From contig NC_088308.1 of NCBI RefSeq assembly GCF_910592395.1, positions 12,913,001 to 12,977,000 of the forward strand: DNA of 64,000 nt, read 5' to 3'. The notes beneath the pieces are model-generated. The model was not told where the DNA came from, made no database searches, and saw only the letters and a list, made by a program, of their open reading frames with translations. Positions within the stretch are counted from its first letter, which is position 1. Each line of letters starts with the position of its first letter. Origin of the DNA: Lineus longissimus. Its lineage: Eukaryota > Nemertea > Pilidiophora > Heteronemertea > Lineidae. The translations under genes were made by a program, and so were the position numbers. Positions 11,091 to 64,000 of this stretch are shown piece after piece.

Positions 11091-11094
11091 CGCT

Positions 11095-11375: not shown

Positions 11376-11896
11376 TTTTTTTTTTTCGATGTCCTTTCCC
11401 AGCCAACGTAGATTTCAGAGAAAAATTCAATAATTTTAGTGCTTAAATGAAAAGTCCATAGGCCTACTACAAGAGGGCAAGCACGATAATACTAGTAACC
11501 TGATGTCAGCAGTACAGTGAAGATAGTAGTCTACATGTTAGTTCATAATAATAACAGCTCAAGATCACAAGAAACCACAGATCCCGGCGCCCCCCGCCCA
11601 CTGACGAAGACCCAGTCGCGCAACTCGATCCATCTCACCCGATCTCACCCTGGCCAAGTTGAGCGCGTAAATACCACGAAAGGGTTAAATTTATCTATTA
11701 ATAGAATATTCAAATAAGATTGCCGTCATGTTGATGCACCGCCTGACCATGCTCCACACATAGATAACGCATGCGCAGTAGCAGCAACTTAAATGGAGAA
11801 TTGGTCACGTGAGGGTCTGGGCGGCGATCATCAAAGCGGGTCCCACGAGCGACCAAAAGGTTTCCCAGCAGCGATCGCGCTCTCCGAACCCTGATC

Positions 11897-15712: not shown

Positions 15713-16159
15713 CTACTCCATTAAACTAAGATTACATGTTTTAGGAGTTGTGTAACACCCTTCTGGTTTACCACCCTTTAATTTGTATCCTTCTGGTTTA
15801 CTACCCTCTCGTACTTTCTTGTTAGTTTTAATCTTAGGATAGCAGTAAATGATGACTGCAAAACCAAATGCAGCTAAAATGACATACAGTGTTGTACTCC
15901 CGGGACTTCCAGTATTTTCAGGCTTATCGAGCTCTGGTTGATTACGAATGCTATGAAGTGAACTTTGTTCGGGTTCATCGTCTTTCCTAGTAAACCTCTC
16001 CTTTTTTGACTTCTTGAATTCCTGAGATCTTTTACCTAATTCTCGAGACCATGCAATTTGTTTTTCTGATCTTGCTCTCTTAAGGGGCTTTTTACTGTCC
16101 GTCACTCGAGCTATGCTCTCGGGCTCTGATCTCTGGACTTTGTCCGGCTCCACTTCCAT
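15713..16159 (-). CDS. Basic single-pass membrane protein of Polinton copy A
   Basis: A 148-residue protein with a very basic N-terminal half (KKPLKRARSEKQ, then KRSQEFKKSKKERF) and one strong membrane segment at about residues 89-107 (TTLYVILAAFGFAVIIYCY), followed by a short basic tail with two related KPEG units. It might be a virion core or inner-membrane protein, but I do not recognise the family. The start has the TTAAATGG context. The N-terminus overlaps the end of the upstream gene by 68 nt, within a region carrying a twin-hairpin repeat (16105-16149). Confidence 0.6.
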   Translation of the reverse strand: MEVEPDKVQRSEPESIARVTDSKKPLKRARSEKQIAWSRELGKRSQEFKKSKKERFTRKDDEPEQSSLHSIRNQPELDKPENTGSPGSTTLYVILAAFGFAVIIYCYPKIKTNKKVREGSKPEGYKLKGGKPEGCYTTPKTCNLSLME

Positions 16160-16901
16160 TTAATCTTCTGAAATTTTCATGTTCACTAGCAGAGTTTGGT
16201 TCGTGACAATGTCCTAAAGTGATCAGTGTTGATGAGGCAAGAGCAGTTAGTGCACCCATTCTCAAACTCAACCATCCTAACCATCTGTCCAATTCATTGG
16301 TAACAATGTAATCATTTCTTAGGTCTTCGTACAGCTGGTCTTCGTCATCAACAGGCAAGAAAAACTTGGTTAATTTAGTGTAAGTTTTTAAGACTGTCTT
16401 ACCCAATGAATCGTTAAGTCTGGCAGCCATCTTTGTTTGGTAGATCCTATGGTGTTTCAATACTTCCTTCTCATTCATTGCGTCTAAATCACTAAGTGTA
16501 AACTGTTTATTTAGGAAATCCTTGCTTTTACCTGTTGCAACAAGCACCTCAAGGTCTTGTTTAGCTTTAAGGCCATTTTCAGTTAAATTTGGTAGACAGT
16601 TAGTAGGACTTTGTCCTGAGAGCGTAGCTCCAGTTGACCCTAGTTGACCACTAGAACTGACTAGGTCTTGACTAGAACTGACTAAATTTGAACTATTTAA
16701 TGCTTTGTTAGAAGCTTGTTGATTTGTAGTGTAATTCTGTTGAAAGTTAGTACCTTTCTGTTGAAAGTTAGTACCTTTCTGTTGGTAATTAGCAGTGTTC
16801 AGTTGGTAATTAGCGCCAACTGAATTTGAACCTGTATTAACTGGGATTAATCCTATTTGTTTCATTTGTTGTTCAATGACAGATGCTGCCTGATTATTCA
16901 T
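16092..16901 (-). CDS. Gln/Asn-rich Polinton protein of unknown function
   Basis: A 269-residue protein. The N-terminal third is Gln/Asn/Ser-rich with short repeats (NFQQKG, twice). A conserved-looking core follows (residues about 110-230, with DDEDQLYEDLRNDYIVTNEL and a hydrophobic ALTALASSTLITLG segment). The last 25 residues are translated from a twin-hairpin repeat and are probably acquired. A second twin-hairpin repeat at 16606-16630 is read in frame as LSGQSP. I do not recognise the family. Confidence 0.6.
   Translation of the reverse strand: MNNQAASVIEQQMKQIGLIPVNTGSNSVGANYQLNTANYQQKGTNFQQKGTNFQQNYTTNQQASNKALNSSNLVSSSQDLVSSSGQLGSTGATLSGQSPTNCLPNLTENGLKAKQDLEVLVATGKSKDFLNKQFTLSDLDAMNEKEVLKHHRIYQTKMAARLNDSLGKTVLKTYTKLTKFFLPVDDEDQLYEDLRNDYIVTNELDRWLGWLSLRMGALTALASSTLITLGHCHEPNSASEHENFRRLNGSGAGQSPEIRAREHSSSDGQ
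16105..16149. repeat. Twin-hairpin repeat across the overlap of two genes, copy A
   Basis: GAGC-TAT-GCTC and GGAC-TTT-GTCC, here separated by about 20 nt. Confidence 0.6.
16606..16630. repeat. Twin-hairpin repeat in the Gln-rich gene, copy A
   Basis: GGAC-TTT-GTCC, TGA, GAGC-GTA-GCTC. Read on the minus strand as LSGQSP. Confidence 0.65.
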
Positions 16902-16960
16902 TTATTTGAAAGGAAAATCCCAGAATGGCAAGGTCTAGACTACATGGTAAAGGGTAACAT

Positions 16961-17981
16961 TTACTGATAACTGATATCTTGCGCCTCTAATGCCTTCAAT
17001 AGAATTTCACTTTGATTATCGATTGCTTGTTCATTTTCATATTCAAGCCTGTAATTTTTGAAGAAAATACTTCCTAAGAAACCAGACCATAGAGATCTCA
17101 AATCATCCAGTCGGTCCTTATCAGTTTGATTCGGTTTCAATACTACATAATCAATTTTCAATGCTTTAAATGCTTGGTGTAAAAACAGCTTGTAATTTAT
17201 GTTAATTTTAACCCCCCTGTAATGAAGATATTTGAGGAATGCCAAGAAAACCATTCTGAGATCTGTGAAATTGTCTTTGGTCAACTGAGGTTTACCAATT
17301 GCTCTGTTAATGAATTCAATTTCTAAATAAGTGTCACACTCTAGACCAGGTAAGACATCATTGGGTTTGAGTTTAACAATACCAAATCGCAAGGCACTCA
17401 GGACTATTTTTTTCATAGCTGGTCGCACAGAGCCATTTTCTTGGACTTGAGAAGTAAACCTTAATCCTACTTTCAACAAAATGTTTCAAATCATTTACCA
17501 ATAAATCTGACAGACACGTCTGGCCAAGGCCTCTGATGATGTAGTCAAAGTAACGTGTTTTGTTCTCAATCGTTATCTCTGGATTCTTAAAGTCATCACT
17601 GTAAATGGTCGAATTGCAATTCCTGCAGTACGTGTAAAGTTGCTTGGCCGGTCTGTCAAAATTCAGTTTTTTCTGGCATTCAAAAAGTGTCAATCGTTTG
17701 CAGTTACGGCACAATTGAACATCACTTCCTGTGAATGTATCATACTGTTTCATAGGTGTTACATGTTTCATCGGTGTTACCTGGTTCATATGTTTCATAG
17801 GTGTTACTGTAAGATCGAGCTCTTTGTCCGGATCTTCTTCAGTGATTGTCAATAATGGTTCAACCCTTGGTCTAATGTAACCATTTTGTTTAATTGGATT
17901 GAAATACTGCATTTGACTGAAATACTGTATTTTACTAAAATACTTCTCTAAAGAGACATAACTGTACATTCTTTCACTCAT
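16961..17981 (-). pseudogene. Zinc-ribbon-containing Polinton protein, frameshifted
   Basis: Two overlapping frames (17373-17981 and 16961-17479) together cover one gene. The first part contains three VTPMKH-type repeats and a zinc-ribbon-like pair (CRNCKRL and YCRNCNS, residues about 92-125). The reading switches near 17475, where LKHFVE in the first frame is followed by LKVGLRFTS in the second. The second part is hydrophobic and charged without a motif I know. One indel accounts for the break. Function unknown. Confidence 0.6.
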
Positions 17982-18001
17982 GATTTAGAATAAAAAAATC
18001 A

Positions 18002-38886: not shown

Positions 38887-39838
38887 GATGTTACGGCCAA
38901 AACTCTACTCTTGGTTTTATTTACAAACATTTTCATATGCACCCGGGTCACTGTCTTTAGGTCAAGCCTATCTTTAGAATCAAGGTGAGACACAGGTCGT
39001 TGGTCCCATAAGAGTCTGCGTCAAGCATCAAAGAGCATCAGAGCCCGTACCTTGTGTCGATTTCAACTGAGAAATGGTGATAAAGCTTGTAGTAAATAAT
39101 GTTAAGTGCCAGGCCATGAAGATTAAATAGGACTGAAGTTTCGGTAGGTGATATTTGATGTACTTCTTGTTTAGTTTTGAGTGCCTTATGGAGTTAAACT
39201 GAGGGTTGAAGATTCAGCCATTGTCTTAAAGATGCTTACACGTATGTGTGTGTAGTCTAGCACAACTAGTTATATGAATGGGTCTGTTAAGCAATAATTT
39301 GGCTATGAAGCATTAATTTCCATGAAGTTAACAACACATTCAATGCTATTCTGGAGTTATCCTTATCCCATGCTTGGTCTTAGTTTGATGACTACAATGT
39401 TTAATTGGTGTTTCAAGTTGTATGTGTTGTGCAAGACAAGGGGGCGTATATGGGTCATCTTCCAGCTATAATGGCTGCTTTGTGTGTTGACAGTATTGAT
39501 AGTGAACTAGGCTGCTATTGTTGTGCATGCAATTGACTTGGGTTTCATTCCCAAGCTTAGTGTAGCTTCTTACTTGGTGATGCTGGCATATTTGGTTGCC
39601 GTGTTTTGCCATTGATAGATCACTGATGCAAAATACATGACGTTCACAGCGCCCTCTTTATTTGAGTTGTTGAACTAATTGTAAAAATCTTGTTGTATAA
39701 TGAGTTTTCTATCACTCATGGTTGCTTAAATTTGTATTTTGCAGTCAATCTGAATTAACCTAAATGGGAAGATAATAAAGAAATATTACATGAAAGAATG
39801 GTTGTTCAGCATTTTCGAGCTAAGCCCATGGTCAGCAC
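38887..39838 (+). repeat. BEL 5' LTR
   Basis: 952 bp starting GATGTTACGGCC and ending CAGCAC, followed by the internal region. It supplies promoter and polyadenylation functions in such elements; no specific signal was mapped. Confidence 0.85.
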
Positions 39839-39856
39839 ATCATTGACGAAACTGGT

Positions 39857-40432
39857 TTGAAGAAAGGATTGGTACTCACAACAGGTATGGCTTTAAATTT
39901 TGATGCTAAGGGAAGAAGCCTGAGGGCCCGAAAGCCAACAGAGAAAGGTGCCGAATATTCGAAAGAGTTAAGGGCAGGAAACTTAAATAAGGTTTTAGAA
40001 AAGACTACCAAGGGTGTCTCAGGTATTAAAGATCTTCTTGAAGCAGGGGCCTCTCCTTCCATTATAGCGGAAGGGTACAAGAACTGGAGGGTGGACTACA
40101 AAGAATGTTTGAGTAGTTATGAGTCATACAATGAGGTATTACCACATGATTTGCAGAAGCAGGACAAAGCCACCTTTAAACAATATGCAAAGGACCGATA
40201 TAGTAATTTCAGAAAGGAAATGAGGTCATGGATAAAGGAACAAGACGTTAGTACAGACATAGGCCCTGGTGATAGCGTTTCCCAGATTGGATCTTGGGGA
40301 TCACTGGTGTCAAGAACTTCAGTAAGTTCCATCTCTGTTGCTCGGGCCCAAGAAGAGCATAAGATTATTGAGCTTTCAGCTAAAGCAGCCGGTCTGAAGA
40401 AGCGTCAGGTCTTGGAACAGGCAAAGTTATGA
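39857..40432 (+). CDS. BEL gag N-terminal part, separate frame
   Basis: 191 residues from the open frame. ATG candidates lie at 39857 and at 39887 (MALNF). Mostly helical and charged (EYSKELRAGNLNKVLEKTTKG, YKNWRVDYKECLSSYESYN), as in the N-terminus of BEL Gag. TGA at 40430-40432 overlaps the ATG of the long frame as ATGA. Reading past the TGA gives a coiled-coil continuation (MEEAQLKLQEEKSK) before a second stop, so in the ancestor gag and pol were probably one frame broken here by a stop and a shift. Confidence 0.65.
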   Translation: MKKGLVLTTGMALNFDAKGRSLRARKPTEKGAEYSKELRAGNLNKVLEKTTKGVSGIKDLLEAGASPSIIAEGYKNWRVDYKECLSSYESYNEVLPHDLQKQDKATFKQYAKDRYSNFRKEMRSWIKEQDVSTDIGPGDSVSQIGSWGSLVSRTSVSSISVARAQEEHKIIELSAKAAGLKKRQVLEQAKL

Positions 40433-43400
40433 CTAGTGATGGAGGAGGCACAGTTAAAGCTTCAGGAGGAAAAATCGAAATAGATACGGAGTTGGCCATC
40501 TCCAATGCCAAGGCCAAGGTGTTGACTCAGCTGGAGTCAGGGAGTTACCAGGCTTCCATGGCGGAAATCAAGTTGGCAGAGCAAGAGCCCAGGGACCATT
40601 CGCAGTGTGCCAGCCCTATCAAAGCTGATCGAGCTCCACTGAGAGAGTCTGCAAAAACATTCGCTCCAAATCGAACACACACAGACGAAATTCACACACC
40701 ACGAGCCCTTGAAAACTTTCACCACAATGGAACTACCTATTACTATCCTCCACCAGCTACCCAGACGGCATCTAATGATGTACTTGTAACAATGATACAG
40801 GAGATGAAAAAGCCACAGTCAGACATCAAGAAATTCTCAGGAGACCCTCTGGAATACAGACGTTTTCTGAGACAATTTAATTCCCGCATTGTGGCCAACA
40901 CCATCGATAGCGAAGAAATGATAAATTACCTTGAACAGTACACGAGTGGCGAAGCTAATCGGATTGTCATAGGCTATGCATGTATTGATGCTAACAACGG
41001 TTACCAAGGTGCCCTTAAGGAGTTAGAAGAACGCTATGGTGACCCAGAAAGAATAGCACATGCCTACATAAAGAAGGCCCTAGAATGGCCAATGGTCAAG
41101 GCTGACGACGCCAGAGGTCTAGATGAATTCTCAATATTTTTAGCAGAATGTGAGAATGCGGTCCAAGTTGATGGATCAATCAAAATTTTGGAATATCCAG
41201 ACAACCTCACAAAGCTGGTGCGCAAGCTCCCATACTATCTTCACGACAGATGGAGAAACATAGTCGGCACAATTAAAGAAAGGAAAGGCATCGTGAGATT
41301 TGAGAACCTAGTCGCCTTTGTTAAGAAGGAAGCCAATAAGTCCATCGACCCGGTCTGGGGCCGTGCAGCACTTGCAAAGGAAGACGGAAGGAATAAAGAA
41401 GCTCCTAGAGGTGGGAAGCCAGCGCCGGTCCAGGGAAGGTTCCGAGCCAAGGGAGCCTTTGCCACAACAACTCCAACAACTCCGATACCCAAGAAGCAAT
41501 GCCTCCACTGCGCAAACCCACAACACAGCATTGATCGATGTGACGCCTTTGCTGCTTTACCCACGTGCGAAAGAGTCGAGATCGTGAAGGCAAAGCGAGC
41601 ATGTTTTGGATGCCTAAAATTAGGTCACAGGAGTAAGGAATGTAGAACGCGGCTAACGTGTAGCCATTGTCAGAAGCGCCATCCAACGGTCTTGCATATG
41701 GATGGAGAACGTCCATACCAGCCATCCACCAAAACAGAAGAAAGGAAGATAGAAACGGCACCATCCAAGCCTACTGTGAACTTTGCAGCAACAGAAAGTG
41801 ATCCAGAAGTTACCATGGCTATTATACCAGTCAAGGTCAAGCTCAAGAGCAGCTACAGAACTATAGACACATACGCCTTCCTAGATCCCGGCAGTACCGT
41901 CAACTTTTGTTCAGAGGAGTTAATGAGGAAACTAGGGGCCGGTGGGAGGAAGACAAGGATTACTCTAGATACCATGGGAACAGAGCATACAATGCAGACG
42001 TATGTTGTCAAAGACCTGGAGGTTTGTGACATCGAAGGCCATAGCTCTGTGGACATTTCTAAATTGTACACGAAGGACAGCATCCCAGTGTCGTCCCGTC
42101 ATATCCCAAAGCAGGAAGACATAATCAAGTGGCCCCAATTGAATGAGGTGAATCTTCCAGTTATCACAAGCGAGGTCGGCCTCCTGATACGAAACGGAGT
42201 TCCGGATGCCTATTCACCTCTGAAGTCCCTCACAGGTCCACCAGGAAGTACTCATGCCGTTAAGACGCGACTCGGTTGGGTTACCTGGAATGTAGTTCGC
42301 AGTAGCTGCAACAGACCAGATATCGGCCATCCAGTAAACCATGTTGAAGTCACAGCAGTCGAAGAGCTAGAAAAGCTAGACAGACTAGTGAGAAGCTCCA
42401 TCAATCTAGATTTTCCTGAGAAGGGAATAGAAGAAACTAAGTTTTCACAGGAGGACAAGCAGTTTATGGAGTTGATGGAAGAATCCATTCATGTTAAAGA
42501 TGGTCATTATGAAATGAAGCTACCCTTTCGAAGAGAAGATATCCGACTACCGAACAACTACACCCAGGCCATGCAGCGTCTTTCCTGCCTCAAAAACAAG
42601 ATGAGCCGGAATTCCAAGTTCCACCAAGATTACAGAGTTTTTATGCATGAGATTATCAACAAGGGATATGCCGAAGAAGTCCCAGCAGATGAATTAAATC
42701 CAGATGACGGTAAAGTGTGGTACATCCCCCACCATGGGGTGTACCACCCAAGAAAGCCTGAAAAGATACGAGTAGTCTTTGATTGCTCAGCAAAGTATGC
42801 TGGAATATCTATTAATGATGTACTACTTCAGGGCCCCAACCTTACGAACAACCTGGTTGGTGTTCTTCTAAGATTCCGTCGTCATCCAGTTGCCATCCTA
42901 GCTGACATCGAGAAGATGTTCTACCAGGTTCATGTAGCTGAAGAAGATAGGAACTACTTGAGATTCGTATGGTGGCCTGATGGGAGCTTAGAAGCAAAAC
43001 CGAAGGCATACCGCATGAAGGTTCACTTGTTTGGAGCAGTGTCGTCCCCAAGCTGCTCCAATCTGGCTCTACAAAGGACAGCAAAGGACCACAAAGAAGG
43101 CTACCAAGTTGAGACGATCAATGCCATGCTGAGAAGCTTCTATGTCGATGATTGTCTCGAGTCCATTGAATCTGAAGCAAAGGCAGTGGCACTCATCAAA
43201 GAGTTAAGAAAAATCTGCCAAGAAGGGGGTTTTAAGCTGACAAAGTGGCTCAGCAACAGACGAAGCGTTTTGGATTTCGTGCCGACGGAGGAAAGAAGCA
43301 AGGGTGCCAAGACTCTAAACTTAGATGAAGACGACTTGCCGACTGAGCGTACCTTAGGAGTCACCTGGCAAGTTGAGACAGATTCCTTCAGTTTCCAGAT

Positions 43401-45750
43401 AAATATCCAAGATCGCCAAGCAAACAGAAGAGGAATTCTCTCAATCATAAGCTCAGTCTATGATCCCCTTGGTCTTGCAGCTCCATTCATCCTACCAGCA
43501 AATATTCTGCTACAGAGTCTTTGTCATAAGGGCCTCGATTGGGACCAAGAAATATCCGGAGCAGACCTCCAGAAATGGCAAATATGGATACAGGACCTAC
43601 CAAAATTGGAGAACCATGTCGTACAAAGGTGTATGAAGCCACTGGACTTTGGAGATGTGAGCTCAAGCCAGCTCCATCATTTCGCAGATGCCAGCGAAGT
43701 TGGGTATGGTACCGCCTCCTACATCAGGCTAGAAAATACCAGGGGAAACGTCCATTGTGCTCTTCTGTTAGGCAAGGCAAGAGTAGCCCCACTCAAGAAA
43801 AACACCATCCCTAGATTAGAACTGGCTGCTGCAGTCACCGCCGTAAGGATGAACCACCTCATCCTGAAAGAGCTCGACTATCCAGTGGATGCCACATACT
43901 TCTGGACGGACAGTACCGCAGTGTTACGCTATATAAGGAACAAGACAAGTCGCTTCAAAACATTTGTGGCAAACAGAATTGCTGTTATCAACGAGGGATC
44001 ACCAATTGAACAGTGGTACCATGTTCCCACTAGTGAAAATCCAGCAGATGATGCCTCAAGAGGCCTTCCAGTCAACCAGTTCCTTGAGAATGGTAGATGG
44101 ACGGGTGGACCAGACTTCTTGCTGAAGCCCCCGGACGAGTGGCCAAAGTTCAGTTTTGATGCAGATGCAACCACAGAGGAGGATCCTGAAATACGGAAAG
44201 AGTCTAAATCCGCAGTGAATGCAACTATCGTCGATAGTACACCATTGGCTAGTCTATTTGAAAGAGTCTCCAGATGGCCAGTAATCAAAGGAGCTGTCGC
44301 CCGAATGCTGAAGTGGAGAACAACACAGACGGGAGAGGACAGGCAAGCTGATCCCACTGTAAATGACCTTGAAGAAGCCGAAAGGAAAATCATACAACAT
44401 GAACAGAAGAGCTTCTTCTCGGATGAGATCAACGCCATTGAAAAGGGTATAGAGCTCCGACGGTCCAGCCTCATTCAGAATCTAGACCCGCTTATGGAAG
44501 ATGGAATTCTTCGGGTCGAGAGCCGACTGAGTAGAGCACCAGCCTTGTCATATCAACAGAAACATCCGATACTGATTCCAAAGCAGTCCCTAATCGCCAC
44601 CAGGATAATTGAGAGGATTCACAGAGATGTTGGTCACCTGGGTAGAGGTGCGGTCCTTACGAACCTAAGAGAGAGGTATTGGATACCGGGAGCCATCAGC
44701 CTTATAAAGCAGTTCATCGCCAAATGCGTCATATGCCGTCGCTACAGGGCCAAAGCTTTGGAACAGAAAATGGCAAACCTACCAATAGACAGGGTGATCG
44801 GAGAGGAACCACCATTCACAAGAATTGGGATGGATTATTTTGGCCCCTTTGAGGTGATGGGAGGCCGAAGCGTTTACAAGAGGTATGGAGTTGTATTCAC
44901 CTGCTTTGCCATCAGAGCAGTCCACATAGAATTAGCTCATACGCTCGACACCAGTTCCTGTATTCAGGCAATAAGGAGATTCATGGCTAGAAGGGGAGCT
45001 CCTAAGGTCATTCGCTCAGATAATGGCACTAACTTGGTTGGGGCCAAGAGAGAGCTGCAAGATTCCATCAAGTGCTGGAACAACGATCGCATAGCCACCT
45101 GGCTGCTCCAGAAAGGCGTAACCTGGGAGTTCAATCCACCAGCTGCCTCTCACTTTGGTGGTGCATGGGAGAGGCAAATACGGACGATCAGGAAAATCCT
45201 GTTCTCACTCCTGCAAGAACAAGTCATTAAAGTCGATGATGAGGGTCTCACGACATTATTCTGCGAAGTCGAGAACATCATCAACAGCAGACCGCTAACA
45301 CAGACTTCAGAAGACCCAAGCGATCTAAGACCATTGACACCAAACACGCTACTGACAATGAGGTGTGAGGCCAACCTACCGCCCGGCCTCTTTGATAGGA
45401 AGGCTTGTTATGCTAAGAGACGCTGGCGACAAATGCAGTTTCTGGCTGACGCATTTTGGAAGCGCTGGTATTCAGAGTACCTACCAACCCTACAAGAGAG
45501 ACATAAGTGGAGGAGAACATCGAAAAATGTAGAGCCTGGAGATGTCGTGCTCGTAATTGAGAATTCGGCACCTAGGAATTCATGGTTGCTCGCGAAAGTC
45601 GAATCAGTCAAAATCGACGGCAGTGGTCACGTGCGATCAGCCAGCGTACGCACATCTCACTCTCTCTTGGAAAGGCCTATTGCCAAGCTATGTCTTCTAG
45701 TAGAAGGTAACAAAGGAGAAGATGAGCTTCCAATTGCTGAAGAGACGTAG
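40429..45750 (+). CDS. BEL/Pao gag-pol polyprotein
   Basis: 1773 residues with no stops. In order: gag core of DUF1759 type (about residues 135-265, FSGDPLEYRRFLRQF), zinc knuckles (CLHCANPQHSIDRC, CFGCLKLGHRSKEC, about 363-410), aspartic protease (AFLDPGSTVNFC, about 483), reverse transcriptase with catalytic YVDD at 905-908, RNase H region (HHFADASEVGYG, about 1085), integrase HHCC finger (about 1397-1440), DDE core (GMDYFGPF, RSDNGTN, GGAWERQ) and a DUF5641-type C-terminus. No envelope gene follows. The upstream gag part lies in another frame. Confidence 0.9.
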   Translation: MTSDGGGTVKASGGKIEIDTELAISNAKAKVLTQLESGSYQASMAEIKLAEQEPRDHSQCASPIKADRAPLRESAKTFAPNRTHTDEIHTPRALENFHHNGTTYYYPPPATQTASNDVLVTMIQEMKKPQSDIKKFSGDPLEYRRFLRQFNSRIVANTIDSEEMINYLEQYTSGEANRIVIGYACIDANNGYQGALKELEERYGDPERIAHAYIKKALEWPMVKADDARGLDEFSIFLAECENAVQVDGSIKILEYPDNLTKLVRKLPYYLHDRWRNIVGTIKERKGIVRFENLVAFVKKEANKSIDPVWGRAALAKEDGRNKEAPRGGKPAPVQGRFRAKGAFATTTPTTPIPKKQCLHCANPQHSIDRCDAFAALPTCERVEIVKAKRACFGCLKLGHRSKECRTRLTCSHCQKRHPTVLHMDGERPYQPSTKTEERKIETAPSKPTVNFAATESDPEVTMAIIPVKVKLKSSYRTIDTYAFLDPGSTVNFCSEELMRKLGAGGRKTRITLDTMGTEHTMQTYVVKDLEVCDIEGHSSVDISKLYTKDSIPVSSRHIPKQEDIIKWPQLNEVNLPVITSEVGLLIRNGVPDAYSPLKSLTGPPGSTHAVKTRLGWVTWNVVRSSCNRPDIGHPVNHVEVTAVEELEKLDRLVRSSINLDFPEKGIEETKFSQEDKQFMELMEESIHVKDGHYEMKLPFRREDIRLPNNYTQAMQRLSCLKNKMSRNSKFHQDYRVFMHEIINKGYAEEVPADELNPDDGKVWYIPHHGVYHPRKPEKIRVVFDCSAKYAGISINDVLLQGPNLTNNLVGVLLRFRRHPVAILADIEKMFYQVHVAEEDRNYLRFVWWPDGSLEAKPKAYRMKVHLFGAVSSPSCSNLALQRTAKDHKEGYQVETINAMLRSFYVDDCLESIESEAKAVALIKELRKICQEGGFKLTKWLSNRRSVLDFVPTEERSKGAKTLNLDEDDLPTERTLGVTWQVETDSFSFQINIQDRQANRRGILSIISSVYDPLGLAAPFILPANILLQSLCHKGLDWDQEISGADLQKWQIWIQDLPKLENHVVQRCMKPLDFGDVSSSQLHHFADASEVGYGTASYIRLENTRGNVHCALLLGKARVAPLKKNTIPRLELAAAVTAVRMNHLILKELDYPVDATYFWTDSTAVLRYIRNKTSRFKTFVANRIAVINEGSPIEQWYHVPTSENPADDASRGLPVNQFLENGRWTGGPDFLLKPPDEWPKFSFDADATTEEDPEIRKESKSAVNATIVDSTPLASLFERVSRWPVIKGAVARMLKWRTTQTGEDRQADPTVNDLEEAERKIIQHEQKSFFSDEINAIEKGIELRRSSLIQNLDPLMEDGILRVESRLSRAPALSYQQKHPILIPKQSLIATRIIERIHRDVGHLGRGAVLTNLRERYWIPGAISLIKQFIAKCVICRRYRAKALEQKMANLPIDRVIGEEPPFTRIGMDYFGPFEVMGGRSVYKRYGVVFTCFAIRAVHIELAHTLDTSSCIQAIRRFMARRGAPKVIRSDNGTNLVGAKRELQDSIKCWNNDRIATWLLQKGVTWEFNPPAASHFGGAWERQIRTIRKILFSLLQEQVIKVDDEGLTTLFCEVENIINSRPLTQTSEDPSDLRPLTPNTLLTMRCEANLPPGLFDRKACYAKRRWRQMQFLADAFWKRWYSEYLPTLQERHKWRRTSKNVEPGDVVLVIENSAPRNSWLLAKVESVKIDGSGHVRSASVRTSHSLLERPIAKLCLLVEGNKGEDELPIAEET

Positions 45751-46217
45751 CCAAGAAGACTCAAGAAGGGTAACAGGGTAGGCTAGCTTCACAGCCGTCT
45801 GCCAAAGGAGCACATGTGAGGCAACTCCTTCCCTCTGTAGCCTACGGGTTCCCTTGAGCAAGGTTTAGTTCCCGTTAAGCTCTCCAGCATCTGGGTTACG
45901 ATGTCTCAAGTCTCATCCCTCTGAGAAGCCAGCATTGGTACCTATGGTAGATGGACGACATGTTAGATGACCAAGCCACAAATGGAGGTCCACGATTTGC
46001 ATCACGTAAAAGAGACTCACCAGGAGAAAATGCTCTCGAGAGACAATTTGATGATTATTGACATTTTGTTTAGTTAAAGGAAACCCTAGGACTCATTTAG
46101 TATTGTGAGCTTGTAGTAGTGGTCAGGTGTTTATTAACCATTTAGTTTAGGCCTTTTTGAAAAATGTAATTGGATAGTAATTGCTTCGAAGCCGCTACTT
46201 CGCAATTAAGGGGCCGG

Positions 46218-47169
46218 GATGTTACGGCCAAAACTCTACTCTTGGTTTTATTTACAAACATTTTCATATGCACCCGGGTCACTGTCTTTAGGTCAAGCCT
46301 ATCTTTAGAATCAAGGTGAGACACAGGTCGTTGGTCCCATAAGAGTCTGCGTCAAGCATCAAAGAGCATCAGAGCCCGTACCTTGTGTCGATTTCAACTG
46401 AGAAATGGTGATAAAGCTTGTAGTAAATAATGTTAAGTGCCAGGCCATGAAGATTAAATAGGACTGAAGTTTCGGTAGGTGATATTTGATGTACTTCTTG
46501 TTTAGTTTTGAGTGCCTTATGGAGTTAAACTGAGGGTTGAAGATTCAGCCATTGTCTTAAAGATGCTTACACGTATGTGTGTGTAGTCTAGCACAACTAG
46601 TTATATGAATGGGTCTGTTAAGCAATAATTTGGCTATGAAGCATTAATTTCCATGAAGGTAACAACACATTCAATGCTATTCTGGAGTTATCCTTATCCC
46701 ATGCTTGGTCTTAGTTTGATGACTACAATGTTTAATTGGTGTTTCAAGTTGTATGTGTTGTGCAAGACAAGGGGGCGTATATGGGTCATCTTCCAGCTAT
46801 AATGGCTGCTTTGTGTGTTGACAGTATTGATAGTGAACTAGGCTGCTATTGTTGTGCATGCAATTGACTTGGGTTTCATTCCCAAGCTTAGTGTAGCTTC
46901 TTACTTGGTGATGCTGGCATATTTGGTTGCCGTGTTTTGCCATTGATAGATCACTGATGCAAAATACATGACGTTCACAGCGCCCTCTTTATTTGAGTTG
47001 TTGAACTAATTGTAAAAATCTTGTTGTATAATGAGTTTTCTATCACTCATGGTTGCTTAAATTTGTATTTTGCAGTCAATCTGAATTAACCTAAATGGGA
47101 AGATAATAAAGAAATATTACATGAAAGAATGGTTGTGCAGCATTTTCGAGCTAAGCCCATGGTCAGCAC
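46218..47169 (+). repeat. BEL 3' LTR
   Basis: Same 952 bp as the 5' LTR with about two substitutions. Followed by ATCA and the resumed non-LTR coding sequence. Confidence 0.85.
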
Positions 47170-55459: not shown

Positions 55460-56227
55460 ATGGTTACTGTAATGAACATAGATTCAAGTGACTATCCAGA
55501 TCAGAGTTCAAGTGATTTAACAGTCAATCTCAAGACTGAAATTCAGGATGCATGTAGCATCACTTTAACTTTTGAAGTAATACCTTGTACATTCTACAAC
55601 ATAAGTGCGGCCAGGGAGAATAACCGAATCAAAGTTAAGGGGTTTGATGTGGCAGAGATTACGCTACCAGATGGTCTCTATGACCTACAGAGCTTTTCAA
55701 AAGTATTTGCGGATAAGTTGAAAGAAAATAGTATGAGTAGAGGTGCTGTCAGATTTGACCTTGAAGAACCAACAGGTAAGTCCATCTTACACTTCCTAAA
55801 GAGAAAAAATGAGGCGCATTATCAGATCTATTTTCTTGGTAAAAGTAATGAATTATTTGGCATGAAATCAGAATGGCCTTACCCTTTAGACAATAAAAGT
55901 AAGGATGATGTTGTAAGCGAGAAACCCATCAATTTTAGACCAATTAACCATTTTGTTTTTCACTGTGACATAATCGAATCTACTAGTGTATTAAGTAATG
56001 GTGAAGCATCTGATGTGCTAACCACAAGACCAATAAAGGAAGCTAATTTTGGAGATTTAATAGCATACACATTTGAGAAACCAATAGCAATTCCCTGTAA
56101 ACCAAGATTCAATAAGCTGAATATTCGCTTAACTGATGAAAAAGGTGACATCATCGATCTTAATGGTCATAATGTACAGTACCAATTGGTATTAACTCGA
56201 GCTATGCTCTCAGCGACACATCATTAA
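55460..56227 (+). CDS. Putative minor capsid (penton-like) protein, copy B
   Basis: 255 residues: N-terminal NIDSSDYPDQSSSDLTVNL, strand-rich middle with DGLYDLQSFSKVFADKL, and a C-terminal block NKLNIRLTDEKGDIIDLNGH. Position after the capsid gene and strand-rich pattern fit the single jelly-roll vertex protein of Polintons; that is inference. The last residues (TRAMLSATHH) come from a twin-hairpin repeat half at 56198-56213, so the C-terminus has been altered by the repeat. Start context CTAAATGG. Confidence 0.6.
   Translation: MVTVMNIDSSDYPDQSSSDLTVNLKTEIQDACSITLTFEVIPCTFYNISAARENNRIKVKGFDVAEITLPDGLYDLQSFSKVFADKLKENSMSRGAVRFDLEEPTGKSILHFLKRKNEAHYQIYFLGKSNELFGMKSEWPYPLDNKSKDDVVSEKPINFRPINHFVFHCDIIESTSVLSNGEASDVLTTRPIKEANFGDLIAYTFEKPIAIPCKPRFNKLNIRLTDEKGDIIDLNGHNVQYQLVLTRAMLSATHH
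56198..56213. repeat. Half twin-hairpin repeat at the end of the minor capsid-like gene
   Basis: CGAGC-TAT-GCTCTCAG only; the GGAC half is replaced by GCGACAC. It encodes the gene's last residues. Confidence 0.6.
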
Positions 56228-56260: not shown

Positions 56261-56719
56261 ATGGCTGGCATTGGTATGTTATTTGGATCTGCAATAATCA
56301 ATGGATTAGCATTCACTGGATCCGGTTACCTTTTCAAGTCACTAGACAAAAACGGTTATGAAGATGAAGTGAAAAGACATGATTTGGCTCAGGAGCAATT
56401 ACAGAAGGCCTCCACAGAATGGGAGGAGCATAGAAAGAGTACTATTGACTTTGTTAATCTTGAATTAAAGAGAGAAAGAGACGCTTCTATTGATTTTAAC
56501 AATACTGATTCAGCACTTACTGTTTACAATCATTTACATCCAGAAAGAACTATTGTACTACCTCAGCGACCACAATTAAGTGATTACTACCAACCTAGTG
56601 ATGAAATGAAGAAATACGAATACCTATGGATTATCCTAGGACTTAGTGGTTTAGGGTTAATAATTTATTATTTTACTAGGGTTAGAAAGACTAAGACCAC
56701 TGATCGGACACAGTCCTGA
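56261..56719 (+). CDS. Membrane/coiled-coil protein, copy B
   Basis: 152 residues. The N-terminal hydrophobic glycine-rich segment (GIGMLFGSAIINGLAFTGSG) is followed by a charged helix (KRHDLAQEQLQKASTEWEEH), an acidic middle and a C-terminal membrane helix (LWIILGLSGLGLIIYYF) with a basic tail. This layout recurs in Polintons of other animals, where it is unnamed. The final DRTQS comes from two GGAC-ACA-GTCC hairpins at 56706-56735 that follow or overlap the stop. Start TTAAATGG. Confidence 0.65.
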   Translation: MAGIGMLFGSAIINGLAFTGSGYLFKSLDKNGYEDEVKRHDLAQEQLQKASTEWEEHRKSTIDFVNLELKRERDASIDFNNTDSALTVYNHLHPERTIVLPQRPQLSDYYQPSDEMKKYEYLWIILGLSGLGLIIYYFTRVRKTKTTDRTQS

Positions 56720-56735
56720 TGATCGGACACAGTCC
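56706..56735. repeat. Two GGAC-ACA-GTCC hairpins at the end of the membrane/coiled gene
   Basis: GATCGGACACAGTCCTGAT occurs twice, 18 bases apart, around the stop codon. Confidence 0.65.
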
Positions 56736-57381: not shown

Positions 57382-57490
57382 GATGTAAAGGATGACAAAC
57401 AGCAGTATCTAAGGGATTTGTACTACAACCCCGAGAGTCCCGTGGCTTACAGTTCTTTGAGTAAAATCTGGAAACAGGTCAAGGAAGATA

Positions 57491-57515
57491 TGACTTCGTC
57501 ACGAGAGCAGAGCTA
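57491..57515. repeat. Twin-hairpin repeat that stops the integrase, copy B
   Basis: TGAC-TTC-GTCA then GAGC-AGA-GCT, ending in the TAA at 57512-57514. Confidence 0.65.
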
Positions 57516-57687
57516 AGGAAAACTTATTAAACAAAAAGAAGTGAAAGAATTTCTAGAAACACTACCAACTCACCAACTACACAAACCGGCCATTAAGAAA
57601 TTCACCTTCAGGAAGACAATGGTATCGTACATCGATCAACAATGGCAAGCAGATCTTGTGGACATGCAGAAATTCGAGAGTAAGAAT

Positions 57688-57717
57688 CGAGCTATGCTCT
57701 CAGGACAAAGTCCGAAT
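57688..57717. repeat. 30-nt twin-hairpin repeat inside integrase, copy B
   Basis: GAGC-TAT-GCTC, TCA, GGAC-AAA-GTCC, flanked by GAAT on both sides. It adds 10 residues between the first and second catalytic Asp. Confidence 0.75.
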
Positions 57718-58618
57718 AAGGGTTTCAGATTCATTTTAACAGTCAAAGATCTATTTAGTCGTTTTTCGTGGGCTCTAGCAGTTAAGAGTAAGAGGGGAGA
57801 AGAAATCAGAGATGCATTTAAAGTGATATTTGAGGAAGCTAAACCAGAGAAAATCCAATTTGATGACGGTAAAGAATTTTACAACAAACACTTCAAGGAA
57901 CTCTTAACAGAAAATGACATAGAATGGTTCTCCACAAAATCTGATAAGAAGGCAGCAGTAGTAGAGAGATTCAATAGAACCCTTAAAGAAAAAATGTGGC
58001 GTTATTTCACCGCTAAGGAGACAGACAAGTGGATTGTCGTTCTGGATGACCTGGTCAGCGGCTACAATAACACATTTCACTCATCAATAGGTATGAAACC
58101 TGTAGACGCCAGAAAGATGGAAAACGAAGGAACAGTGTGGTACAATCTTTACGGTCTTCACCTCAAAGAGACATTTGGTGATCCAAAGTACAAAGTAGGT
58201 GACAGTGTAAGAATTTCAAAGTACAAGTCCATTTTCGGTAAAGGTTACATGCCCAACTACACTGAGGAGGTGTTCCAAATCAAACAGATCATCTTTACTC
58301 ACCCTATCGTCTACCAGCTTGAGGATTACCACAAAGAAGAAATTCAAGGATATTTCTATGAAGAGGAATTGAGCTATGTTCCTAATCCTGACCAGCTAGA
58401 GTACAAGATCGAGAAAATCTTGAGGTACAAGACCAGTAAAGGCAAGAAATACGGATTAGTGAAGTGGAAGGGTTACAGTGATAAGTTCAATGAATGGTTA
58501 CCAGTTTCTGATATCAAATCATTGAAATGAAATAAAGTCTCTAAAGTGACTTAAGTCACAAGAACAAGTTCGAAAAACGTAATTTAAAAAAAAAATGTCC
58601 TACTAAATAAAGAAAGAA

Positions 58619-59737
58619 ATGGAGGGAGCAATATTTGATAATCAAAATGGTATGATGAATCAAAATGGTATGATGAATCATGATAATATGATGAATCATG
58701 ATAATATGATGAATCAAAATATTCAGAAGTTTTTGTATTATTTGCATCAAAATAATATGTTAAATCAAAATATGATAAATCAGATTATGTTAAATCAAAA
58801 TATGATAAATCAGTTTATCTTAAATCAGATTATGTTAAATCAAAACATGGAAAATCAGAATATGATAAATCAGAATAATATGATGAATCAAAACATGGAA
58901 AATCAACCTACAATTTATTGTGTTAAGTGCTGTGAAAAGAAACCTGAAATTAATTTTGAAAAGAACAGGCGTAATAAACTACTTGATTACTGTAAAGAAT
59001 GTGGTTCAAGTAAAATCAAGGGATGTAATAAATGTTATGAAATTAAATTACTAAGTGATGGTGAATTTGGTAAAAACGGAAATAGAGGTAACTGCAGATC
59101 ATGTTTTAATTCATATTACAAAAAGGATTACCTTGACCAAAATGGTAATAGAGACAGACACAAAATTAGAGTTGGTCTAAACCGCATTTCTAAGGGAGAG
59201 TGTAACGGTAATTCCTCATTTAATCTAGGATGTACAGACAGTTTCTTCCATCAGTGGTTAGAGAACCAGAGGAGTCTATCTCCAATAGGACAAAGTCCCG
59301 GGAACAGAGTTTGAATAGAAGAAGCGTTGGATCATGTCTTACCAATCAAGGAATTCAAAGATAAACCTGAACTGTGCTTTGCTTGGTTTAACATGAGACC
59401 AATGGAAAAGACAGAAAACAGACAGAAGAGTGCTAAAGTAGACTACACACTATTTAAGGATCAATTGGATAGGTCAATGGATTTCATGGTAAAGATGAGA
59501 AGTGAAAACTGGTTTGTCTTTCGAGACCAGGATGTAATACCAGATTGGAAAATAGTGATATCACAGCATTTCGGGGATTATCTTCGTGATGAAAATACGA
59601 TTCTGCTTGATAGATTATCGAATTTAAATAATAACATGAGAATGAACCAGAACATTAACATATGTAGTCAGACAGAAATCATAAACGAGATGATTAAGTT
59701 GAATAATAGACTTGAAAAAATTTACTCTTTGCAGTGA
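58619..59737 (+). pseudogene. Zinc-ribbon/HNH-like protein, copy B, stop in hairpin repeat
   Basis: The N-terminal 95 or so residues are Asn/Gln/Met repeats (MMNQN, MLNQNM units) built from AATCAAAATATGAT-like DNA, absent from copy A. Then the Cys pairs CVKC, CKEC, CNKC, CRSC and, after a TGA at 59312-59314, the HNH-like LDHVLPIKEF, WFNMRPM, ENRQKS. The TGA lies where copy A has CGA (Arg), within the twin-hairpin repeat at 59288-59313, so it looks like a C-to-T change at a CpG. A role in DNA processing is inferred from the HNH pattern only. Confidence 0.65.
59288..59313. repeat. Twin-hairpin repeat in zinc/HNH gene, copy B
   Basis: GGAC-AAA-GTCC then GAAC-AGA-GTTT; the final C-to-T change makes a TGA stop. 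Confidence 0.7.
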
Positions 59738-60685: not shown

Positions 60686-60999
60686 GGACCCGGACTACGT
60701 CCAGAGAACAGAGTTCGACTCGAGCTATGCTCTCAAGACGAAGTCGGACTAGGACAAAGTCCAGAGAACAAAGTTCGACTAAATAGTCCTAATCCTAATG
60801 TGGTGTATCACTATCACTATTATCATTACTTTGGTGTTAGAGATGAATTTCACCAAGTAGCACTACCATCAGCACCACCCTATTCATTAGTTTAATCGAG
60901 CTATGCTCTCAGGACAAAGTCCGAATAATGATTTTGCACTCGAGCTATGCTCTCAGGACGAAGTCCGACTAGGACAAGGTCCAGAGAGCAAAGCTCGAC
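60686..60999. repeat. Array of twin-hairpin repeats with proline-rich gene remnant
   Basis: Between the membrane-protein gene and PolB lie about six twin-hairpin units: 60690-60716, 60720-60745, 60752-60778, 60897-60924, 60941-60968 and 60972-60998, in both orientations. Stems are GGAC/GTCC plus GAGC/GCTC or GAAC/GTTC with 3-nt loops. Between them (about 60790-60895) is a frame ending LPSAPPYSLV, the remnant of the proline-rich gene seen at 5347-5445, without an in-frame ATG. Confidence 0.75.
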
Positions 61000-63900
61000 T
61001 CAAGCGAAGTTTGAATTGCTGTAATCCATGTAGCCTTCATAATACATTCCAAATGGTAAGGTGCTTATTCCATCTTCAAGTATGAACCTCTTGTCATCAA
61101 AAGGACTGAGGCTTTTTTTGTCAACTTCTTCCAAATAGATTTGGTGTTTATCTGATCTTAAGTGTCTCATCTTGTGGTAAAATGACCTACTCTTTTCAAG
61201 ACAATCAACATTGTCATCAAATGAGATATTTCTCCTTACTACATTCTTGGCAATACCCTTTAATTTCTTAGAATCGTAATCTTTTGTCCTGTAAGCGTAC
61301 ATCTTACTTCTCAGGGCAATGAATTCAGTCATCTCTACTCCTCCTAGCTCATCCTTAAAGTAGCCTGGTACCTTCTTTTTACTGGTATCATAGAGTGTAT
61401 GATCTTTTGGATAATTACTGAAGTCAAAATAGTGTTTCAACTCCTTTAAGTCTTTAGTTAAGTCATCAGTATTAATGTTAAGTACAAAGGAATCTGTATC
61501 TAGATACAGCAGTTCAATATTTTTCTCACCAAAGTACGGTTGAAGAACTTCATAATAGAATTCATACATTAATAATTTAGACAATTCAAGTACTGAAGCT
61601 CCTATGTAGATTGGTTTGTTGAATTTCATTGATGTTTTCCTCATGCTAATAGCAGCATTCTGTTCGTCAAATACGCATATCGATGAAAACCTGGGATTGG
61701 CCATTACATTCCTGGCTCTCTCCCCGTCCGATACAAATTCAATTTCAACCCTGTTCCTTACATTCTCACAAGTCTTTCCGTAGAACGCATTATTCATGAG
61801 CTTAAAATAGTCTTTCTCAAAATCAGTCTTAGAATCCATACGTCTTTTAGTGTTAAAATCAATGTATGGTGCTAACCACTTTGATTGTTTAAAGCTTATC
61901 ACTGAATGAACCCTCTTAAGTACCATTCCGTGCTTGAGGTAAAATTGTAGCATTCTGTAATGCACTATGTAATTAGTTTTATCCTTTTGTGTTAGTATTA
62001 GTTTCTCTACATTTGATCTTTTATCATCGCCCAGTAACTCTCTCTGGTAAGGACTTAATTCATCATCTTCAATAAAGAGAGATTCAGGACAGAATGGAAA
62101 GTTCCTCGACTTAAATTTAATATTTCCTGGATACTCCAAATCCACCTCTAAGAAATACCCTACCTCACTATCACTTGGAATTGCCATAATCTGCTCTTTA
62201 CTAATAGCATTCATGTTAAGTGGATCAATATCTATCATTTCAAAACTACCATAGGGTTGAGGTTCCATCATGGACCATCCGTAAAGATTGTTTGCGTCTA
62301 CGTAGAGTAGTTTGTGGTGTTCATCTGCCTTGACATGTCTTGTTCCCATAACACCCGAAATTCCACCTCGTATTGCTTTCTCAAAAGTAAGTAAGATGTT
62401 GGTATCAGTCAGTAGTTCTAGGTTTATTCCTGTGTACTTCAAACCAGCTTGCCAGGTTAGGCCTGGTGCCGAGTAACAGTGACATGGATCAATCTGAAAG
62501 TAGTTCAAATTGACATCCCTGAATTTCTCAAATAAATCAGCTAAAAGGATCACATCAGTTTTGAGGTAGAGGTCAATGAACTCACCGTGATTCCTGATCT
62601 TGAAATGATCCCATATTACCTTAGCTTCATCATAGGCAGAATCAGGTGCCATTTCATTTTTCAATTCGTCAAAAAACATAGACTTTTCTAGGTAAGTAAC
62701 ATTGTAGCTTTCATGTGATGTGTAAAAAGAGTAAGGTACTGAACCCTTCTTCCTCAATAGCTTAAAGTCAGTGGTATTTGGGAACAGCTGTCTGGTAATT
62801 TTAAAATCATCATCCAACATTGATTTGGTTATGTTGTCTAAACTGGACTGCAGGAATCTGTACGAGTCCAAAAACCTGAAACAACCGAACTGAAATGAGA
62901 TGTATTCCTCTGATGTTTTGGCAAGTATTTTCAGTTTCTTGTACTTCGGTAGCTTAGTCATTAATTCTTTAATAAATAAGTGAGAATCGTAATTACTGAG
63001 ATTGTGAAAAAATACTGGAACAAACATAGCTTTCTTTTCATTCAAATTACACGAGTTGTGAGCAGCACCTCGATATCTACCACAGTAGTGATCATGATCC
63101 TTGACCTTGTCATATCCCAAAGGTTGATTACAATAGTAACAATGTGTTTCTAATTGATATTTATGCCAGTCTTCATCTGTCATTGTTAGAGGAAAGTTAC
63201 AGTTCAATAAATTAGAGAATTGTTCTTCCATCCTGATTAACCAATTACAGAACACATCTACAACATCAGCACCCCTGTGAGACACATACTGGCTACTGTA
63301 AAGGTGTGTGTAGTCTGAGTGAACATAAACACCAACAGCTGATGCATTTTGTTTAAAAAGTTTTTTAGTGGTAACAGTGGTATCTGTCTGAGGACGAAGT
63401 CCGACTCGAGCTCTGCTCTGAGTTGTGTCGGACTTCGTCCTGAGAGCAGAGCTCGAGTTATCATTGACTGTTGTGCTTATCGCTTCGAAATCAGCATAGA
63501 TCACAAACGGAACTCTATTTTTGAATGAGTGTTTTTCAAATTTAATTTGTGACCATTTACTGTTAGGTGGAGGCAAAGTAATCTTACAGTAATCGTGTTC
63601 TCCACATTTCTTTTTATGCTTATCTAGTGTTGACTTCCTGTAAAAGTAATTCATGCATCTCCTGCAAAGATACACTCTATGAGCTAGTGTCCTGAAGAAA
63701 AGATTGATGTCTCTTATGTACATGAAATGGTCCTTGAAATACAGCAGATCGATGACATCATCATCATCATAATTCTTGGACAGGTAGAGAGGTTCTAGTT
63801 TTGCCTCACAGGTGCTCTTAGCCGATTCATTCTGCAATTTAAACACATTAATTTTGAGATTATTATCACTTTCTATCTTAGGAATATCCTTTTGAATACA

Positions 63901-64000
63901 TACAGGAAATGATTTGATTTTGATATCAGTAGTTTTCGAACTCTGTTCTCGTGACGAAGTCATTTGTAGCATATCGGTAGTAATATTTAATGTACTCTCG
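61000..64000 (-). CDS. Protein-primed DNA polymerase B, copy B (N-terminus outside window)
   Basis: Replicates the element, priming from a terminal protein as in other Polintons. The frame is open to the window edge. Motifs: Cys pattern CRRCMNYFYRKSTLDKHKKKC, exonuclease I YADFEAIS, endonuclease-VII-like CYYCNQPLGYDKVKDHDHYCG, exonuclease II HNLSNYDSH, motif A region DANNLYGWSMME, motif B NAFYGKTCENVRNR and motif C LYLDTDSF, all in order. Repeats at 63392-63457 (an inverted pair read as coding) and 63937-63962 are in frame. Opposite in orientation to copy A relative to the integrase block. No inactivating change is visible. Confidence 0.9.
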   Translation of the reverse strand, partial: ESTLNITTDMLQMTSSREQSSKTTDIKIKSFPVCIQKDIPKIESDNNLKINVFKLQNESAKSTCEAKLEPLYLSKNYDDDDVIDLLYFKDHFMYIRDINLFFRTLAHRVYLCRRCMNYFYRKSTLDKHKKKCGEHDYCKITLPPPNSKWSQIKFEKHSFKNRVPFVIYADFEAISTTVNDNSSSALRTKSDTTQSRARVGLRPQTDTTVTTKKLFKQNASAVGVYVHSDYTHLYSSQYVSHRGADVVDVFCNWLIRMEEQFSNLLNCNFPLTMTDEDWHKYQLETHCYYCNQPLGYDKVKDHDHYCGRYRGAAHNSCNLNEKKAMFVPVFFHNLSNYDSHLFIKELMTKLPKYKKLKILAKTSEEYISFQFGCFRFLDSYRFLQSSLDNITKSMLDDDFKITRQLFPNTTDFKLLRKKGSVPYSFYTSHESYNVTYLEKSMFFDELKNEMAPDSAYDEAKVIWDHFKIRNHGEFIDLYLKTDVILLADLFEKFRDVNLNYFQIDPCHCYSAPGLTWQAGLKYTGINLELLTDTNILLTFEKAIRGGISGVMGTRHVKADEHHKLLYVDANNLYGWSMMEPQPYGSFEMIDIDPLNMNAISKEQIMAIPSDSEVGYFLEVDLEYPGNIKFKSRNFPFCPESLFIEDDELSPYQRELLGDDKRSNVEKLILTQKDKTNYIVHYRMLQFYLKHGMVLKRVHSVISFKQSKWLAPYIDFNTKRRMDSKTDFEKDYFKLMNNAFYGKTCENVRNRVEIEFVSDGERARNVMANPRFSSICVFDEQNAAISMRKTSMKFNKPIYIGASVLELSKLLMYEFYYEVLQPYFGEKNIELLYLDTDSFVLNINTDDLTKDLKELKHYFDFSNYPKDHTLYDTSKKKVPGYFKDELGGVEMTEFIALRSKMYAYRTKDYDSKKLKGIAKNVVRRNISFDDNVDCLEKSRSFYHKMRHLRSDKHQIYLEEVDKKSLSPFDDKRFILEDGISTLPFGMYYEGYMDYSNSNFA
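63392..63457. repeat. Inverted pair of twin-hairpin repeats in PolB, copy B
   Basis: GGAC-GAA-GTCC plus GAGC-TCT-GCTC, an 8-nt spacer, then the reverse complement order. The whole block is a large palindrome read in frame. Confidence 0.75.
63937..63962. repeat. Twin-hairpin repeat near the PolB N-terminal side, copy B
   Basis: GAAC-TCT-GTTC then TGAC-GAA-GTCA, both stems fully paired with bases different from the common form. Confidence 0.7.

Follow-up and report, generated by a model that had tools for sequence, protein, structure and literature searches.

Introduction

Short palindromic sequences that spread within genomes have been described from organelles and bacteria. The GC clusters of yeast mitochondria are described as short, palindromic, flanked by AG or ACT, and prone to merging and shuffling (PMC4478555). 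The Rickettsia palindromic elements are bacterial and measure 105-146 bp. They are fused in frame within protein genes, which tolerate them, and their target duplication is marked "?" in a review table (PMC2229807). The hairpin elements of sponge mitochondria are reported to sit less frequently in genes for proteins than in those for rRNA (PMC2800124). In the accessible text of the open-licence literature, PMC5799277 included, we found nothing of this kind described from Polintons.

We here deal with a family of twin-hairpin repeats in Polinton DNA. The window, i.e., the whole stretch of 64,000 nucleotides that was analysed, corresponds to C1:12913001-12977000 of the assembly, C1 being a 29.4-Mb contig. 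An earlier note on this DNA had claimed about 18 such units of 27-30 nt in both orientations, restricted to Polinton copies and often in frame, and had suspected a small mobile or recombination-generated element that proteins tolerate as a linker. With a probability of roughly 0.7, we consider the units to be a non-autonomous 27-nt mobile element of Polinton DNA that duplicates 3 bp of its target, perhaps by way of a folded substrate and a Polinton-linked nuclease.

The Polintons and their genes

The carrier elements pass as Polintons. DNA_pol_B_2, rve plus Chromo, and a Pox_A32-type ATPase were found; for the capsid protein there is a weak match, below its cut-off (Capsid_N, E=0.0025). By our own delimitation, Polinton pieces account for about 24 kb of the window. 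The integrase gene (57517-58530, + strand) encodes the rve and Chromo domains, and the DNA polymerase B gene (PolB; 61000-63999, - strand) combines DNA_pol_B_2 with a sub-cutoff Endonuclease_7 match. At 3873-4436 (+ strand) lies the gene of an HNH, endonuclease VII-like protein with a match to PHROG 1035, endonuclease VII (E=3.5e-4); it had no Pfam match at 0.001. The AlphaFold model of this protein (mean pLDDT 48.8) is too poor, and its structure was therefore not used as evidence.

In copy A, a reverse transcriptase frame runs into the end of a truncated integrase frame (344-2968 and 2876-3196). Several tandem arrays with periods of 89, 68 and about 21 nt lie between Polinton pieces at 9221-11412. 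A BEL/Pao-type element (38887-46517, long open frame 40384-45750) is probably a recent insertion, because its direct repeats, 38887-39186 and 46218-46517, are 100% identical.

Anatomy of the unit

The index element (57688-57714, + strand) lies in the integrase open reading frame. It is built of a first hairpin GAGC/GCTC with the loop TAT, the spacer TCA and a second hairpin GGAC/GTCC with the loop AAA, bounded by a C and a G. An AAT is duplicated around it, the left copy at 57685-57687, the right one at 57715-57717. The consensus of the family, C-GARC-NNN-GYTC-TCN-DGAC-NNN-GTCH-K, comprises 27 nt: two 4-3-4 hairpins, the TCN spacer between them and one extra base per end. When the 15 window units are aligned with their flanks, the left extra base is mostly C and the right one G or T. 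The unit of 27 nt and the 3-bp target duplication add up to a net gain of 30 nt, i.e., ten codons; the previously proposed length was nearly right, 27 being the element and 30 the net insertion.

The stems were compared in 14 distinct units. In stem 1, nine of them have G-C and five have A-T as the third pair, with no mixed form; the first pair is broken in two. In stem 2, the first pair is G-C in eight units, T-A in two, A-T in one, G-T in one, and broken in two. Overall, 95.5% of the stem cells are paired. Changes on both sides of a stem were seen in eight cells versus 2.7 in shuffles, and none of 500 shuffles reached eight. This excess supports the hairpins; it is no proof of selection, because kinship among units can beat such shuffles without any structure. 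The loops are freer than the conserved stems. In a unit of another Polinton copy (L029, see below), the second stem reads GTAC/GTAC.

As DNA, single units fold weakly: three folded alone yielded -2.2 to -4.1 kcal/mol with z from 0.33 to -1.64, which counts against the mobile-element reading. Arrays of units fold better than shuffles. Rfam 15 gave no match above the gathering score across the window.

Units in the window

The 25-nt core GARCNNNGYTCTCNDGACNNNGTCH occurs in the window 11 times exactly, three times with one and twice with two mismatches. Three first-order shuffles of the window, taken together, had no match at up to two mismatches and one at three. The total is 15 near-complete units plus three partial or rearranged ones, in agreement with the 18 or so counted before; the two-mismatch core match at 16121 was assigned to the partial units, outside the 15. 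Every unit resides in Polinton DNA. The remaining 40 kb or so of the window (reverse transcriptase genes, the BEL/Pao element, satellites, a Mutator-like gene) contain none, nor does a Polinton-like piece at about 31.8-35.1 kb. Within the window, both the two orientations and the restriction to Polinton copies thus hold true.

Copy A bears a unit in its HNH-like gene (4070-4096, - strand, duplication ATT), at the very site where the HNH-like gene in copy C carries 59287-59313 (- strand, two mismatches, duplication ATT). A second one lies in its PolB fragment (6747-6773, - strand, one mismatch, duplication ATT). The PolB of copy B contains 13840-13866 (- strand) between the inexact flanks AGT/GGT. 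The gene of a Gln-rich protein harbours 16605-16631 (- strand, duplication ACT) and, at its 3' end, a compound in which a half unit is combined with a two-mismatch one (16107-16146, + strand). Another half unit, first hairpin and spacer only, is found at the C-terminus of the minor-capsid-like gene (56198-56212, + strand). The unit 57490-57516 (- strand, one mismatch), in the integrase gene towards its N-terminal end, has flanks that match in one of three positions, and it introduces a TAA into the integrase frame. At 56706-56735, the end of a 152-aa frame, there are two direct GGACACAGTCC hairpins, 8 nt apart, that look like second hairpins of units.

Some units are stacked. Array 1 consists of 60691-60717 (- strand, flanks AGT/GGT), 60721-60747 (+ strand, one mismatch, ACT) and 60751-60777 (- strand, AGT), the starts of which are spaced exactly 30 nt. 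Array 2 consists of 60941-60967 (+ strand, ACT) and, 30 nt on, 60971-60997 (- strand, AGT). A single unit, 60897-60923 (+ strand, duplication AAT), is located between the 219-aa gene and PolB. The PolB of copy C contains 63429-63455 (- strand, flanks ACT/ACA). Rearranged half units in PolB (63391-63417, + strand) follow the order second hairpin, ACT, first hairpin. Near the PolB N-terminus lies 63937-63963 (+ strand, flanks TTT/TTG), the exact core of which recurs in several Polinton blocks of C1 among the matches listed.

Distribution in the genome

Over the 391 Mb of the genome, the core at up to one mismatch produced 4,085 matches (2,025 forward, 2,060 reverse), whereas the reversed, uncomplemented control pattern produced 17 (7 and 10). 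The core thus stands far above shuffles and the reversed-pattern control, and the family claimed in the earlier note is real. That note had itself named chance, given the base composition, as one possible objection; the same two controls contradict it. Nothing was found in favour of chance, base composition or an assembly artefact. The 4,085 matches versus 17, the shuffles of the window and the consistency of the flanks across separate loci speak against it, and we consider its probability negligible.

The 100 exact matches listed all come from C1, from the part at 8.63-13.0 Mb, where they form seven clusters (one of them a single match; 115 kb), and all fall in Polinton stretches. Around listed matches outside the large pieces, 47 small stretches were taken, and the units were masked before comparison. 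The flanks of 46 match Polinton pieces by DNA; none of the 47 found its best counterpart in the non-Polinton DNA of the window included in the comparison. The remaining stretch, L072, has one open frame with a protein match to the integrase P0122 (51% over 43 residues, E=7.7e-11), a match that includes partly unit-encoded sequence. L072 (C1:12912360-12912490, just upstream of the window) contains single hairpins (half units) in tandem with a 15-nt period; the stretch as such matches the N-terminus of P0122. The other listed matches fall within the Polinton pieces of the window itself, in L028, and in L029 and L030, which align to PolB and integrase of the window. L028 has a first frame similar to PolB N-termini (P0002, E=7.7e-28) and two more that match frames at 16095-17984 of the window. 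An enrichment in Polintons, which had been suggested as a check of the family, is thus borne out by the excess over the control and by the masked flanks.

Twenty-two 10-kb stretches chosen by coordinates (220 kb), three of them from contig starts, contained no match at up to two mismatches and three with exactly three. One of the latter, L012:9229, retains an intact first hairpin, perhaps as the remnant of a decayed unit. In viral_contigs, neither the exact GAGC-type core nor the GARC-type pattern had a match, and the integrase profile retrieved no confirmed relative; in genome_contigs, the exact pattern turned up five times, singly, in five unrelated bacterial records. Both collections may omit records close to the window's own.

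Target-site duplication

An exact 3-bp duplication flanks ten of the 15 window units, versus a mean of 2.2 and a maximum of 9 in 20,000 shuffled pairings; these units are not fully independent, since 4070 and 59287 represent one site in two copies and several others stand in arrays. The match between the flanks of the 15 peaks in a single register. A 4-bp duplication had been considered first and was dropped as the 3-bp register stood out. Over C1, the duplication is exact in 56 of 95 distinct rows (111 matches at up to two mismatches, deduplicated, the stretches L071-L077 left out), versus a mean of 13.9 and a maximum of 28 in 5,000 shuffles; the rows are not independent either, because many repeat one site across several Polinton copies. 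In 39 of the 95 an exact duplication is missing, which counts against the mobile-element reading. The duplicated triplets are mostly ANT, ACT being the commonest, with a T nearly fixed beside the left end. GCT, TCT and GAT are also doubled, and the triplet thus follows the target.

Duplications of 3 bp are made by DDE transposases of the Harbinger/IS5-like type, and an exceptionally short MITE that such an enzyme mobilises in trans would also explain the size of the duplication and the strong sequence preference. However, the unit ends, CGARC and MDGAC (the right end being read inward), are not inverted repeats of each other; each is a hairpin in its own right. A duplex of 27 bp is also short for bringing two transposon ends together, and no copy at up to two mismatches showed up in the 220 kb of sampled DNA. 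We consider a MITE of this kind improbable.

The middle base of the target goes with the type of unit. Among the 56 rows with exact duplication, a spacer TCN with A goes along with a middle base of the triplet that is A in seven and C in 32 cases and never G or T; with G or T in the spacer, the middle base is G or T in 14 of 17 cases and A in three. Counted by distinct flank pairs, the relation is 36:0 versus 2:13 (p=2e-10), the rows not being fully independent. The tie had first been suspected from 13 window units, which the larger set includes, and the count is swollen by sites that are orthologous. It suggests that the target is polar in a way that goes with the element type; the mobile-element model does not account for the tie.

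Empty sites and recent movement

The index insert, RAMLSGQSPN at the protein level, is missing from all 30 integrase homologs aligned (P0121-P0151 minus P0149, from the best 120 of 2,824), including one with 92% identity. In P0143 and P0146, another insert of ten residues, unlike the index one, stands a few columns from the index site, which counts against the mobile-element reading. The ten-residue inserts of P0168, P0143 and P0146 were rejected as units; they cannot encode a perfect twin hairpin plus an exact 3-bp duplication. The insert of P0122 fails this test too. P0122, an integrase of Lineus longissimus, displays the unit-like peptide GHSPESIA near its N-terminus. A peptide-pattern scan for unit-like inserts matched P0122 alone among the 240 proteins listed (the best 120 of 1,633 and the best 120 of 2,824). 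A codon-based scan of 183,516 windows found no perfect and nine one-mismatch cases, one of them in P0122 and five in a single conserved stretch of PolB.

In PolB, the site of the copy B unit 13840-13866 corresponds to a 30-nt gap in copy C. Of 18 homologs, 16 extend across the site (all but P0012 and P0018), and the unit is missing from every one of these 16; in L029, a unit occupies this very site. In the HNH-like gene, copies A and C have a unit in common; P0241, P0243 and P0244 are without the insert, and P0242 stops short of the site. Differences in presence between orthologous genes, the other check suggested for the family, are thus seen as empty sites in three genes: integrase, PolB and the HNH-like gene. 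P0121, P0168, P0241 and P0243 (Bartonella sp. CL..QHWL) and P0012 (Sulfurimonas sp.) are Polinton-like proteins under bacterial names. Such entries are probably animal DNA in bacterial assemblies; the Bartonella contigs shown are short.

Pieces of the Polinton copy at C1:8.637-8.644 Mb share 98.4% identity with copy C of the window over PolB and 97.8% over the integrase region. The PolB of that copy is longer by 30, 30, 60 (two opposite units) and 30 nt. Exact duplications surround the units at three of these four sites (AAT; ACT; ACT and AGT); the fourth has TGT/GGT. The same copy is without the index unit 57688-57714, and in L029 it is 45 nt shorter around 63391-63455. Because copies about 98% identical over the compared stretches differ by several unit insertions, the movement is recent. 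L030 (C1:8641400-8644000) has an extra 30-nt insert with the stems CAAC/GTTG and GGAC/GTCC within an older unit that matches 57490-57516, hinting at further subfamilies that escape the search pattern.

Fourteen left flanks of 8 nt are paired with more than one unit; some of them are ends of array neighbours, and some of the unit pairs differ by one base. Flanks such as CAGGCTTG and ATTAGTTT carry units that clearly differ, as would be expected from nested insertion and from loss within arrays of 30-nt steps. We infer that the general direction is insertion, not precise loss. The 3-bp duplication, the recent movement, the swaps of units at one site and the polarity of the target, which goes with the element type, support the small mobile or recombination-generated element that had been suspected.

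Alternatively, the units could arise by copy-choice during Polinton replication: a displaced strand would pair over a few bases with a unit flank elsewhere, the polymerase would copy the unit and return, and hairpins would promote the switch without any transposase. This is the main rival, and a very short MITE is less likely. Copy-choice would account for units confined to Polinton DNA where examined, for arrays that vary between copies and for different units at one site; the element type is also tied to the middle base of the target, as if the flanks had travelled with the donor. The doubled GCT, TCT and GAT, however, imply that both flanks can follow the target, not a common donor flank, and three bases are little homology for picking units over other DNA. 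All in all, we rate copy-choice as unlikely, though worth keeping in mind.

The units might also be functional Polinton sites under selection, such as packaging, recombination or uptake-like signals, spread by gene conversion. Their occurrence in Polintons only, where examined, and the conserved stems with freer loops would suit this idea. Against it, copies of about 98% identity differ in their units, and this by whole 30-nt steps, and one insert puts a stop codon into the integrase frame. We give this explanation little credence.

Reading frames

Twenty-four of 30 distinct units (window plus L028) are located within stop-free frames of at least 100 codons, six outside, and the claim that they are often in frame is thus justified; the length of such a frame by itself is no proof that each one is a gene. 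The count omits 63937-63963, which was taken to duplicate a row from L029. Of the 24, 11 are sense and 13 antisense units, in three phases. Inserts in genes are mostly tolerated; any benefit as linkers is putative.

A possible mechanism

The mobile element, as we see it, would insert into a 3-bp target, mostly ANT, duplicate it and add 30 nt. Its substrate would be folded Polinton DNA, a cruciform or a displaced single strand, while the Polinton replicates. In our preferred view, it is the folded or displaced strand that is recognised, since a 27-bp duplex leaves little room for paired-end transposition and since hairpins, not inverted repeats, form the ends. The donor hairpins and the target might both be cut by a Polinton-linked branch nuclease that makes a 3-nt stagger. 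We suspect such an enzyme because of the endonuclease VII family match and the sub-cutoff Endonuclease_7 match in PolB, both of them weak. The HNH/endonuclease VII-like protein is perhaps a candidate, its profile match being weak. The gain of 30 nt would keep frames open, and copies could persist in genes as ten-residue linkers.

More tentatively, the units may represent a new class of mobile DNA: a protein-free hyperparasite of Polintons, 27 nt in size, recognised by the shape of its twin hairpins and not by terminal repeats, moved as folded single-stranded DNA by a branch nuclease of the Polinton itself, polar in its 3-nt target, the middle base of which goes with the element type, and frame-preserving, the latter because element plus duplication equal ten codons. 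This we regard as possible, if somewhat doubtful.

Comparison with known systems

If the mobile-element reading is true, the unit combines very small size with a clear target-site duplication, and mitochondrial palindromic clusters have a nuclear, virus-associated counterpart. A Polinton is evidently able to bear dozens of inserts, mostly in frame, in its genes. Since a single assembly offers about four thousand copies along with empty sites, unit swaps and pairs of close Polintons, the movement of short palindromes becomes directly testable.

MITEs are similar in being non-autonomous (the unit has no coding capacity), in their high copy number and in duplicating a target site. The Polinton units are far shorter, not A+T-rich, devoid of clean terminal inverted repeats and found in one class of mobile elements. 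The double-hairpin and repetitive hairpin-forming elements of mitochondria, to which the units are likened by description only, are scattered hairpin repeats too; they are organellar, and few are in genes, as far as the accessible text of the source goes (PMC2800124).

With the Rickettsia palindromic elements, the Polinton units have the in-frame insertion into genes in common. The likeness drawn in the earlier note stands for this behaviour; it does not stand for size, which is 27 nt in place of 105-146 bp. In contrast to the "?" for target duplication in the accessible review table, the Polinton units come with a 3-bp duplication.

Closest in behaviour, judging from the accessible descriptions, are the yeast mitochondrial GC clusters, GC42 and GC18. 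Like them, the Polinton units are palindromes, here in pairs, with repeats of 3 bp at their flanks, most often ACT. Of the GC clusters, the most-studied one measures 42 nt, another 18 nt, and they are mitochondrial and mostly intergenic. The Polinton units, in contrast, are nuclear, the listed ones residing in Polinton DNA of the 29.4-Mb contig; they measure 27 nt, consist of two 4-3-4 hairpins and lie mostly inside reading frames. In its behaviour, the Polinton unit thus resembles both the GC clusters and the Rickettsia palindromic elements, and it belongs to neither family.
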